A stretch of 52,275 nt of DNA from Gammaproteobacteria bacterium bin55 (GTDB lineage: Bacteria; Pseudomonadota; Gammaproteobacteria; Pseudomonadales; Azotimanducaceae), in assembly GCA_002238665.1 (NCBI GenBank), contig MPMU01000005.1:1-52275 (forward strand), written 5' to 3'. Positions 15,615 through 43,220 of this stretch are shown here, piece after piece; position 1 is the first letter of the stretch, and each line of letters starts with the position of its first letter. Below the pieces are notes generated by a model. That model saw nothing but the letters and a program-made list of their open reading frames with translations, made no database searches and was not told the origin of the DNA. The translations under genes were made by a program, and so were the position numbers.

Positions 15615-15803
15615 CTACTTGTCCTTGTAAACTATATTTTCAGGTTGCAGGATAGCCTTAACGAAGTTCTCCATCTTCTCTTTGACCGTATCACCAGAGA
15701 CGTCTATATGAAACTCCGCCTCTAACTCAGCTTTGCTCAGTTGATAGGTTGACACACGGAGTTCTACAAAGGGTAATTCTTTGCGGTACTTTCGTTCTTT
15801 TAT
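15615..15803 (-). other. 62-codon open frame downstream of the methyltransferase, no canonical start (ATA); possibly a small degraded gene
   Basis: Frame reads KERKYRKELPFVELRVSTYQLSKAELEAEFHIDVSGDTVKEKMENFVKAILQPENIVYKDK*; not in the supplied ORF track; internal GTG at 15753-15755. Confidence 0.35.
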
Positions 15804-17074
15804 GCGTCAGGATTCACGCCATCAGGTAGTTTCGGTAGAGCTTTCATCCCAGCAAGTCTTGAAATCAGATATTCTGTACGATTACCTTTCAGTGAATTGC
15901 AGTAACTACACAGGAGCTGTAAATTCTCGATGTGATTAGTGCCGCCCTTGGATGTAGGGGTAATGTGGTCCACTTCTAAATTTTGCATTTTAAAATGTTC
16001 TTCGCACCCATGACAGTACCCCCCTTGTTCACCGTAAAGGATTTTCTTATTTTTTAGGGAGTTATAAGGTGGTAGCTTGCCTAGGTCTGTACGTAGTGGA
16101 ATGTCTACTCGGTCAGTAACATCTACAAATATATCTGGTTGGTCGGCTTTGATTCGTTCGTTAACTAGCCGTACTGCGATTGGACTAATATCTATACCTA
16201 CCCAGTTTCTTCCGAGTCTATCCGCTGCAACTAAGGTGGTTGCACACCCGCAGAAAGGATCTAGGACCACGTCACCTTCGTTTGAAGATGCTTTGATAAT
16301 TCTCTCGAGTAGCGCTAAAGGCTTCTGGGTAGGGTATCCCACGCGCTCTCGCTGGTTCGTCAGTACCGGAACATCTGACCACCAATCCTCAGGAATTTTG
16401 CCGTCGCCGAATTGTGCTCTCACGTCCTCAATACTGCGTTTGTCCTGGGTATTCACTGAAGGGGAAATCACACTACGAGTGCCCTCTATGCGCCCGCGTC
16501 GAGCCAATGTCTCAGCGCTGTAAGCCGTGCGGACAGCGTCTGCATTGAACGCCTCTCCCCCAAAAAACAGAATCGTATCGTGTTTGCGCGGAAACCATCG
16601 CTTCGTATTGGACGGGCCAGTGTAGCACCACACAATCTCATTTCGAAATTCCCTCCTACCAAACACTGCATCCATCAATAGCTTTAGATAGTGACTCATC
16701 GTTGGATCACAATGCAAGTAAATCGAGCCGTTCTCTTTTAGTAATCGGTGCATTTCAAGTAGCCGAATCGCCATATAAATGAGATAAGACTTATCCGAAT
16801 TATTTTGTGCCGCTTGAATCACCCGCCATAGAGCCGCTTGTTGCGGTTTCTTTTGGAGCAAATCTAGCCACTTAACGTTTAAATCTGATAATGACCATGT
16901 ATCCTTAAACTCCGAACCCGCTGCTTTGCTACCAATTGGCGCGGCGTAGTTGGCGTTGGAGTTGAAAGGGGGGTCTAGGTAGATAAGGTCCACTGAATCC
17001 GAATTCATTCCCCGCATGATTTCAAGGTTATCAGCTGTCCAAATCGTTCGATTCTTCCAGTTTGTTTCTGCCAT
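15800..17074 (-). CDS. Beta-class DNA methyltransferase fused to a C-terminal HNH nuclease domain
   Basis: DLIYLDPPFNSNANY (motif IV), DVVLDPFCGCATTLVAADRLGRNWVGIDIS (motif I); C-terminal CHGCEEHFKMQNLEVDHITPTSKGGTNHIENLQLLCSYCNSLKGNR (HNH). Confidence 0.9.
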   Translation of the reverse strand: MAETNWKNRTIWTADNLEIMRGMNSDSVDLIYLDPPFNSNANYAAPIGSKAAGSEFKDTWSLSDLNVKWLDLLQKKPQQAALWRVIQAAQNNSDKSYLIYMAIRLLEMHRLLKENGSIYLHCDPTMSHYLKLLMDAVFGRREFRNEIVWCYTGPSNTKRWFPRKHDTILFFGGEAFNADAVRTAYSAETLARRGRIEGTRSVISPSVNTQDKRSIEDVRAQFGDGKIPEDWWSDVPVLTNQRERVGYPTQKPLALLERIIKASSNEGDVVLDPFCGCATTLVAADRLGRNWVGIDISPIAVRLVNERIKADQPDIFVDVTDRVDIPLRTDLGKLPPYNSLKNKKILYGEQGGYCHGCEEHFKMQNLEVDHITPTSKGGTNHIENLQLLCSYCNSLKGNRTEYLISRLAGMKALPKLPDGVNPDA

Positions 17075-38557: not shown

Positions 38558-39682
38558 TCATGCTTCGAGAGTGAATTCAACTCCGTGGGCATCCATGATC
38601 TCGGGTAATGCTTCAAGTGGCACTCCGACCAATGTTGCCGCTCTCCGTATCGAGAGGTGACCCTGATTGAGTGCTCCAGCCAAGACCTCTACGAAGCGTT
38701 TGGAGAACAATGGAGGATTTTCTGCGTCACTAACCTTGCCACCGTTATTTCGTAGAGACGATTCTGGAATAGATTGAGCCAATGATTCTGGCAATGATCC
38801 AAGAGATACTAAGCGCCACATTAAGGCGGTGGATGTAACTTCAAGCTTTGATGCAATCCTGTTAAGTTTTTCAACAAGACTATCCTGGTCTAGTTCTCGC
38901 CACGGACCGAATTTGTTGATTATCGACGCTGGTATGAGTACAGTTGCCGCAAAATTGTTGGCAAGATGCTCGACACGATCTCCGCCTCTCTCGTCAGAAC
39001 TTTCAACATGACTCGGTGGCATTGCTTCAAAGGTCAGGATATGAAACAGTTCATGTGCTATACCGAAATTACGCCGTCCTACGATATCGTTGCGGCTAAT
39101 CAGCACCGTGTCCATCTCAGGCAGACGGCACGCAGCACCAGAGATACCTTCTTCCGCGTTCACCATGAGTACAAGAATGTTCAGGTCATCTTCCATTACC
39201 TCCACCAGACGTCGCGCTGGTACATCTCCGAGTTTGAAGTCCCGAACGAATCGTTCGCCTGCATCCATTGCGTCTTCATAGCGAGATTGCTTGGTCAAAG
39301 ATAACGATGGTCGTATGAGAGGTGGATTGACTCCTACTTTGGGTGCTAAGGTACGATACGCGCCGATCCATTCACTCGCTTTACTTTCGTATTTGACCAA
39401 TATTTCCGTTGAAACATTTTTCTGTCGCCAAGAAAACCGGACTTCGCCGTCGATTCGGAATGGGTCAGTGAAGTACTCAATCGGCACGCCGAGTTGCTCA
39501 GCTATAAGCAGTAACTCTTGCACCTTGATACTTCGAGCGCCTGTCTCGATTGCTGAGAGGATCTGCCTAGCATTTAATCCTAGGGACTGCGCTAGTTCGT
39601 CTTGAGACAAGCTCTGACGTTGACGAATCGCTCGGATCCTTGCCCCGATTCGATTATCTACGACGCTATTCTTTAGATCCAT
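38558..39682 (-). CDS. XRE-type HTH plus ImmA/IrrE (COG2856-like) metallopeptidase
   Basis: IRAIRQRQSLSQDELAQSLGLNARQILSAIETGARSI (HTH); FGIAHELFHILTFEA (HExxH). Confidence 0.92.
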   Translation of the reverse strand: MDLKNSVVDNRIGARIRAIRQRQSLSQDELAQSLGLNARQILSAIETGARSIKVQELLLIAEQLGVPIEYFTDPFRIDGEVRFSWRQKNVSTEILVKYESKASEWIGAYRTLAPKVGVNPPLIRPSLSLTKQSRYEDAMDAGERFVRDFKLGDVPARRLVEVMEDDLNILVLMVNAEEGISGAACRLPEMDTVLISRNDIVGRRNFGIAHELFHILTFEAMPPSHVESSDERGGDRVEHLANNFAATVLIPASIINKFGPWRELDQDSLVEKLNRIASKLEVTSTALMWRLVSLGSLPESLAQSIPESSLRNNGGKVSDAENPPLFSKRFVEVLAGALNQGHLSIRRAATLVGVPLEALPEIMDAHGVEFTLEA

Positions 39683-39891: not shown

Positions 39892-42800
39892 CTAAAACTC
39901 CCACGTCTCAAACCTTCTTAACTTTTCGATCTGTTCCTCTAATTCTCTTTTATGCTGAGATAAGTCGTAGCCTTCTATGCAAATTTCATTTGCTGCGTGG
40001 ACTAAATCAGGCACATGATCTACAAAGTTGTAATTTGGAAATTCCTTTCCATCTCGTTGAAGGACTGATCTTGACTTTTCAAGTATTGCTTCGCTACAAA
40101 ATTCTCGACCTATTGCTTCGGCGCGCTGTCTCAATTTTTCGTTGGTGACCCACTTTGGCGGAAATCTCAGGGAATCAAATGTGGATTTTGTTACATCAAA
40201 TGCATCTCCAACCATTAGCCAGTAAGCGTGAAATACTCCCGAATTAAGGAGACAAATATACGGCCAGTAATTTTCGTCATTTGGCACTTTTAGTGATTTT
40301 CGACGATCACTAGCTAGCAATTCATCTGGTATGCACGTCAGGAAATAACCTGCGGTGGGTGGGTATGTAATAATTTCAGATGGACCCGATTTTTGTTGCA
40401 ATGATCCGGTCTCTGAGTACATATTTGTAAGAAGCTTCACAAGTAAGTTGCTTCCCGCCATCGTCCACCGTTCGATGTCAGGTTGAATTGCACTCGGTCG
40501 CTGACCGAGGATTTCCTTCCGTATATCTGCTCGTAGCCCAATGTAGCATGACGAGTAAAGAGTTGGTCCCCTTTCAGCTTCGACGCTAGTTTTATTAATA
40601 AGAGAAATCACTGTAACACGTTGCACATTTTCAGAACCCTTGGATCCACCTTTGATAAATGGGTGCGGCGGGAAAACCGCCACAGGACGATTGTTGTACG
40701 TGCGAAGATGAACAGATTTTGCATGTCTAAGGCAGATCTCCCGTATTTGGCGCTTTGCCTTTGCGAAACAAATCGAGTGTGGTACAACCATCGTAAAAAC
40801 ACCACCCCCATCTTTAATCAGGTTTGTACATAGCTCAACGAATAAGGTGTAGAGATCACCACATGAGTGCGATTGATATCCATTTTCTTTCGCACTTATT
40901 TTTGCGTCAGTGTTTTTAGAAGTGTTTTCATAGGGTGGATTACCTACCACAATATCCCAGTGGTTTCTACCAAATAGTAGTCTTAATCCAACTTTCGTGA
41001 CTACCCGTTCGCTTCCTAAAAACTCACTGTCCAACCATTCAGTTACTGACGGATGTGGAAATTTGAGATCCTCTTTAATCTTCTTCCTCGCTTCCGCTTC
41101 AAGAACTCGAATTTCATTTTTTTCCCGGGTACCATGGGCATGCATATACTTATCACGTATCTCGCGCCATGCCTGTAAATGCTCATCTGTTAGATGAATT
41201 CCGAGATCATTGTCATCTTGATCGTTCACGCGAGTTGCCAACGAATTTGCTGACACGATACGAGTTTCAAGATTTATTAACGGATCTAACATGAAATGGT
41301 CATTGCCACTAAGTTGGGCGTTGATCAGGGCGAGGTAGAACCGGAATCGGGTTATTTGAACCGCGATTGGATGTATATCTACGCCGTAGAGTTGGTTCTC
41401 GATGGCATATTTAATTCGCTCTTGATCGTTGTATTCCTCTCGTAAAATCCTGCGCTCAGTTCGCCTCAGGATATTGAGTGTGCTTACAATGAACTGGCCA
41501 CTTCCGGTGCATGGGTCTAGAACGGTAATTGCTCTTAAGTGTTCAATTAAAGCACGACTCTGTCGGGCATCTAAACCATCAGTACTGCCCCCCCATCATA
41601 TCGTATTATATTTAACATGTCATCGAATTCTACTCCTTGTACCTGTTCTACCGAAGAATGCGCTAATGCATCGCACACCATTTCCTCCGTAAGGTCCTTT
41701 GGTGTGTAATAAGCACCATCAGGTTGGCGAGCTAAAGGTCCAATGTCAACTTCGGTGGCGATTGCTAGAAATCTTTCGAAAACACTACCAATCATGCTCG
41801 GATCAAGTGCAATGTCAGAGTGCACCTGAGTGTGTTCTGTGAGTGTCCATTCATACCTCTTTAAAATTGTGAAGAGTCCAGGTCGATTGGTCCCTTCTCC
41901 ACCGAGATAGTCAATATCTCTAAGAGGTGAACGCAGAAGACCGTCCTCTTCACTGAATAAGGATCCATTCAAGAAGGGGGAGTCCGCATAGGCTTGCTCC
42001 AGAACGTCATACTCAATAGGGTGCCGTCGCAAGTTTTCCTCTACAGGAAGTATGCGTGTAAACAGGTGAACTAGCTGATCGTGGACTGAAATCCCACTGT
42101 TCTTTTCGAATACCTCCGATGGGATCACACCTTTTTCTTTCAAAAACCAAGTGAAGAGTATCCGTACTAGGTGGCGTAAATCGTCCAACTCCGTTCCAGT
42201 CCGCTTAAACCACTCCGCTAGGTCATCATAGAATTTGGACCGAATGGGATTAGCATTAAGAGAATTTACAAGATCAGAGATTCCTTGGTTAGCATACCTA
42301 GTAAGCATTTCGAGATGTTCAAGTACTAAGGTACCTGGAAGTTCTGGATCAAATGGTGCAGAGGTGACCAACTTTCCACCGTCCCATGCAAAAATCCTGC
42401 ACACACTACATCTTCCATCTTCTTGGTCAATTTCGACTGCTAGACCAGCTACTTCAATGGACTCATCGTACAGATATGTCTCCTTTAAAGCATCGTGAAT
42501 GTCCTGAACAGCGATGATTCCGTCGTCTGCTCTGCTCTTTATACTCACCAAGTACGAATTAGGTGAAATGCCATCAGAGTTACTTTTAGACACTATTTCA
42601 ATCGAGGAAAGCCAATTTGTGTGAGGCTCCAGTGTAGCTTCAGGTTCTGCCATTTGCATCAACAGGTCATCGTGAGCTACTGAATGTCTGATTTTGTCCA
42701 GGAGATTGAAACCATCCTTATTAGAAAATTTTCTGAGAATTCTTGAAGATCCTCTATGAATAAGAGGATTGAGTGCATGTTTCAAGTCTTCGTAGGTATC

Positions 42801-43220
42801 TGCCTTTTTGGACGTGAGCCATACTACATCCAGTTCTCTACGCTGGCACACTCGCCACTCTTCTCCATTTGAAAGCAGACCAAAAACGCCGTCGTCTGAA
42901 AATCTATATTTCTTAACGTACTCCTCAAGTTGGACCTTTGGAATTCGCGTCGCAGCATCGCTTCTTGAAGGGCGTTTATCAAGATCAGTATCGAGAGGCT
43001 TGCCTTCTACTATTAAGTCGAGAGAGTTATCGTCGCGGAAACACAAAAAGTCCGGTCGTTGACCCTTGTCTTGAGATTCTCTCTGAATATGTGAATACCC
43101 CAGGACATCCTCCAAGACTGAATTAATGATCTCGGTATTAACATCCTGTTCTGAAACCGATTCCCGATTCTTCAGCTTCTTTAAGGTACCTTCGTAGTCA
43201 AATCGCGGGATTTCTTTCAA
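39892..43220 (-). CDS. Type IIG (Eco57I-like) restriction-modification enzyme, split in this assembly by a frameshift at a G7 tract (41588-41594)
   Basis: N-terminal ORF 41571..43220 has PDFLCF...LIVEGK (PD-(D/E)xK); uncalled 41293-41570 reads DPCTGSGQF (motif I); ORF 39892..41292 has DIVVGNPPYENT (motif IV). One extra G in the tract joins all three. Confidence 0.88.

Follow-up and report, generated by a model that had tools for sequence, protein, structure and literature searches.

A poly-G run divides a type IIG-like restriction-modification gene of an uncultured Pseudomonadales bacterium: a candidate phase-variable switch

When a restriction-modification gene is interrupted at a homopolymer, is it dead, or has it been caught in one state of a switch? 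We addressed this question for a gene in the window, by which we mean the whole stretch of DNA that was analysed (52,275 nt), belonging to a MAG of 2.93 Mb in 183 contigs (87.8% complete; G000 below). A G7 run on the minus strand (41588–41594) is the boundary between two reading frames of one type IIG-like gene; a preliminary description had placed it there, splitting the gene just before methyltransferase motif I, and both the position and the split were confirmed. The upstream frame (41571..43220) starts with TTG at 43220 and ends at TAG (41571–41573) shortly past the run. The frame past the run does stay open, as had been claimed: the −1 frame has no stop from 41595 to 39892 (567 codons), and position 41292 merely marks its first ATG/GTG/TTG, the downstream half being open from the G7 run itself. 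With the −1 frame open through the whole downstream half, a change in tract length would toggle a single ORF, as expected of a contingency locus. The features are listed below, the homologs being those of two congeners, G008 and G009.

39892..43220, minus strand: whole type IIG-like restriction-modification gene, in two frames (intact homologs in G008 and G009)
41571..43220, minus strand: upstream half, nuclease-like and helical, with TTG start and premature TAG (PADLOC type IIG model PDLC03601, 2.8e-14)
42999..43055, minus strand: PD...EGK nuclease-like motif, RPDF...VEGK (sequence; RPDF...VEAK in the G009 homolog, the EAK part in the cut G008 locus)
41588..41594, minus strand: G7 homopolymer, the proposed contingency tract (sequence, run count)
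41571..41573, minus strand: TAG stop met past the run in the upstream frame (sequence)
39892..41595, minus strand: downstream half, −1 frame, 567 codons open, methyltransferase and presumed target-recognition part (Eco57I 4.6e-24, MmeI_Mtase 6.8e-12)
41491..41517, minus strand: methyltransferase motif I, DPCTGSGQF (sequence; DPCTGSGEF in both homologs)
40930..40941, minus strand: methyltransferase motif IV, NPPY (sequence; kept in both homologs)

The two Pfam matches of the C-half (Eco57I and MmeI_Mtase), together with motifs I and IV being kept in the homologs, place it among the Gamma/N6 adenine methyltransferases. Both halves were matched by PADLOC type IIG models, and the closest solved chains by profile were MmeI, BrxX/PglX, TaqI, and BsaXI. 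The nuclease-like and methyltransferase parts, which the window has in two frames, form a single open frame in both G008 and G009. Domain order, the MmeI/Eco57I-like methyltransferase, and the PD...E(G/A)K motif support the prediction of a type IIG-like enzyme, and to that extent the earlier assignment to type IIG stands; its nuclease domain is the weaker part, and we write "type IIG-like" because the N-half matched MmeI_N at just E = 0.048. Membership in the BREX PglX family was rejected (45–76 bits against family cut-offs of 400–900), and a predicted structure of the intact homolog was set aside (pLDDT 39).

Re-initiation past the run was rejected as a source of active methyltransferase, since the first ATG/GTG/TTG of the downstream frame (41292) follows motif I and simple re-initiation would lose that motif. 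The preliminary description had held that an OFF product keeping the nuclease region without the methyltransferase needs explaining; instead, one frameshift in a fused enzyme is expected to abolish both activities, as is argued for Cj0031 (PMC4889913). Downstream of the restriction-modification gene lies an XRE/ImmA-like gene (38558–39682, minus strand) that RmrA-like PADLOC models match; the flanking sequence retrieved around the two homologs (G008 and G009) contained no match to it.

The G7 run is the sole G/C run of at least seven in the 52-kb window. Runs of exactly six, seven, eight, nine, and ten numbered 90, 4, 1, 3, and 2, respectively, in the 2.93 Mb of the MAG. The fall from 90 to 4 between G6 and G7 would predict almost no runs of nine or ten, and the five runs of at least nine are therefore a separate class; the G7 lies outside that class by length. 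The PhasomeIt cut-off for a poly-G contingency tract, G/C ≥ 7 in a reading frame (PMC6321876), includes it, and the Campylobacter survey counts G ≥ 7 and cites tracts of at least eight as shown to switch expression (PMC6321876). A tract of seven is at the short end for switching. With 10 runs of at least seven in 2.93 Mb, about 0.01 would be expected in a gene of this length; it is location, rather than length, that makes the G7 notable.

Comparison with related genomes, proposed in the preliminary description as a check, found the gene intact in 2 of 17 congeners, with open frames of 1135 aa in G009 and 1110 aa in G008; both homologs are 52–54% identical to the C-half of the window gene. The G009 linker between YYTP and motif I reads GTC GGG GGG GGG GGT ATA, an in-frame G11. 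In the alignment this tract precedes the window's G7 by about a dozen codons, within the same variable linker; the corresponding G008 linker has no tract. Because their positions differ, we infer that the two tracts arose independently. Among the three gene parts compared, the linker is the most diverged on the window branch. A scan of genome contigs for close relatives returned nothing beyond the G009 homolog, and that of viral contigs none; a viral-contig pattern scan that kept the flanks and let the tract length differ was also negative, and 387 sampled genomes of the class yielded no further close homolog at E ≤ 1e-60.

We then searched the 17 congeners and the MAG itself (18 genomes of the genus) for runs of G ≥ 9. 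Run-bearing and adjacent ORFs were annotated by Pfam and PADLOC, with gene classes assigned by hand; likely artefacts, namely runs near the edges of contigs and the N-flanked G002 C30 and G008 C45, were left out. Restriction or DNA-methyltransferase genes, by these hand-assigned classes, hold 17 of the 38 internal runs (binomial P ~ 8e-13 against an assumed 5% of the genome being such genes); about 11 of the 17 disrupt the reading frame, 4 preserve it, and 2 are unclear. They were distributed as follows.

D12 class: G000 (in frame) and G005 (out of frame), both runs at motif I
Type III Mod: G000 (out of frame)
N6_N4 methyltransferases, several with HNH: G009, G010, G014, G016, and G017
Type IIG-like genes with runs of G ≥ 9: G003 (twice), G006, G009, G010, and G013
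ResIII/Mrr helicase gene: G013
REase-ARP gene: G005
Type ISP specificity domain: G015

G013 and G003 have homologous type IIG-like genes (identity 69% on one side and 65% on the other) that are interrupted within the same linker, G013 by a G10 tract and G003 by a C9 tract. In the control, 19 genomes, each from a different further genus of the family, gave a list of 47 loci with an internal run, and none of the 20 run-bearing ORFs scanned there was a restriction or methyltransferase gene. The difference is significant (17/38 vs. 0/20, Fisher P = 1.8e-4), with uneven sampling, as runs were partly fetched and the 20 were picked for ORF length.

Restriction and methyltransferase genes abound in the genus, and N6_N4_Mtase matches are unusually many (21 in G000, 2.9 Mb; 41 in G010, 2.5 Mb). 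The window itself has an N6_N4-type methyltransferase at 15800–17074 (minus strand); this gene is intact, ends in an HNH-like C-terminal part, and contains two G/C6 runs, and its homologs in G009, G010, G014, and G016 bear poly-G tracts. In the MAG's own type III Mod gene (L086, contig C101), the frame is broken once more upstream of the G10 run, which could mean decay or an additional switch. Elsewhere in the MAG, a G8 lies between two long ORFs that read, by sequence appearance, like rpoB and rpoC (contig C17), a G9 lies between dnaA and a phoX gene (C137), and two related stretches (C159 and C176) each have a G9 close to an ORF of the same type. Six loci of G029, a genome of another genus (L125, L127, L129, L132, L134, and L135), have poly-G/C runs at ORF starts where the first residues are signal-peptide-like, which suggests phase-variable exported proteins.

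We consider the G7 run to be probably a poly-G contingency tract in a type IIG-like gene, subject to slipped-strand phase variation and caught OFF. This is the best reading because of the G11 in the G009 linker and the concentration of the genus's long runs in such genes, with 0/20 elsewhere; the split, moreover, falls exactly at the window's only G/C run of at least seven, with both sides open. The intact homologs in two congeners, the linker breaks in the type IIG-like genes of G013 and G003, and a C-half without relaxed constraint also speak for it. The switch proposed in the preliminary description thus gains the in-frame G11 of G009 and the long G runs concentrated in the genus's restriction-modification genes, and is weakened by the shortness of G7. 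Against it, G7 belongs to the decaying background class (four such runs in the MAG), and G008 lacks a tract. The tract would sit in the variable linker between the N-terminal nuclease-like part and the methyltransferase, where slipped-strand mispairing at replication would add or drop G's and shift the frame; at the OFF length presumed for the MAG, translation would end soon past the run, with simultaneous loss of methylation and sequence-specific restriction. Reversibility of the tract, its switching rate, and its benefit, whether variable phage defence, a methylation-controlled regulon, or both, we infer as well.

The main rival, which we regard as possible but rather unlikely, is a fixed or slowly reverting loss, in which an ordinary one-base indel struck a short homopolymer recently and without selected switching. 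It would account for a G7 in the background length class and a G008 homolog without a tract; restriction genes are, moreover, often lost, and the second break upstream of G10 in the type III Mod gene suggests that some tract-bearing genes of this MAG may be decayed. The claim that no other decay is visible held, however, as there is no second lesion across 1,100 codons, both halves are open, and the window-branch length ratio of C-half to N-half is 0.89 (95% 0.71–1.12), so that the C-half is not faster and gives no sign of relaxed constraint. This ratio speaks against old decay only, because the homologs are too distant to show a recent lesion. The sister tract (G11 of G009) in the same linker and the genus-wide concentration of long tracts also count against a fixed loss.

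An assembly or sequencing error, with a true tract of another length and an intact gene, is in our judgement very unlikely: homopolymers are error-prone, above all in long-read assemblies, but the window's remaining long homopolymers inside genes (T8, T7, G6) all lie in intact ORFs, and no further split gene was seen in the window. Programmed ribosomal or transcriptional slippage at the run, yielding some full-length protein, would suit a required shift of −1 and a homopolymeric run; with no slippery site conserved, since the homologs read in frame through another tract or lack one altogether, we hold it to be very improbable.

Beyond phase variation of this one gene, we see an even chance that an uncultured, restriction-rich Pseudomonadales genus switches mainly restriction-modification genes by poly-G, in several enzyme classes and with tracts recurring in the same linkers, unlike Campylobacter, the window gene being one member. 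The majority of poly-G tracts in Campylobacter are in surface-structure genes, and the best-known cases of phase-variable methyltransferases come from host-adapted pathogens. In the literature searched, mainly at title and abstract level and with subscription papers thinly covered, we found no report of restriction-modification genes that phase-vary through poly-G tracts in uncultured Pseudomonadales. If true, the genus-wide reading would carry random epigenetic switching into another part of the bacterial world and provide a natural setting for asking which role, phage defence or gene regulation, it plays. A further suggestion is that a restriction gene found split in a MAG may be off and not dead.

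Among known systems, MmeI and the BREX BrxX/PglX methyltransferases are the nearest solved relatives of the window's methyltransferase half, although the similarity is distant; the window gene does not approach the PglX family cut-offs and has a nuclease-like motif. In Helicobacter pylori, type III mod and type II methyltransferase genes have internal poly-G with a truncated basal state and a shift that restores the fusion, as proposed here, but these are of a different enzyme class and the tracts cited there are G9 and longer (PMC12003011). The slipped-strand poly-G mechanism is already known from Cj0031 of Campylobacter jejuni NCTC11168, to which the window locus would add another example. 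Cj0031 is a poly-G phase-variable type IIG enzyme of the kind that the preliminary description had mentioned from Campylobacter; its G9 changes length to give two annotated frames, G10 being OFF (PMC4889913). Its tract is past the mid-point (2573 of 3732 bp), whereas the window's G7 lies between the N-terminal part and motif I, and its switching has been observed, whereas that of the window gene is proposed from sequence (PMC4889913). Many Cj0031 homologs are described as having no tract, as is the case for G008 here (PMC4889913). Common to Cj0031 (PMC4889913) and the window gene, which is predicted to encode a fused restriction-modification enzyme as Cj0031 does, is an internal poly-G run at which a change of length would lead to two frames.
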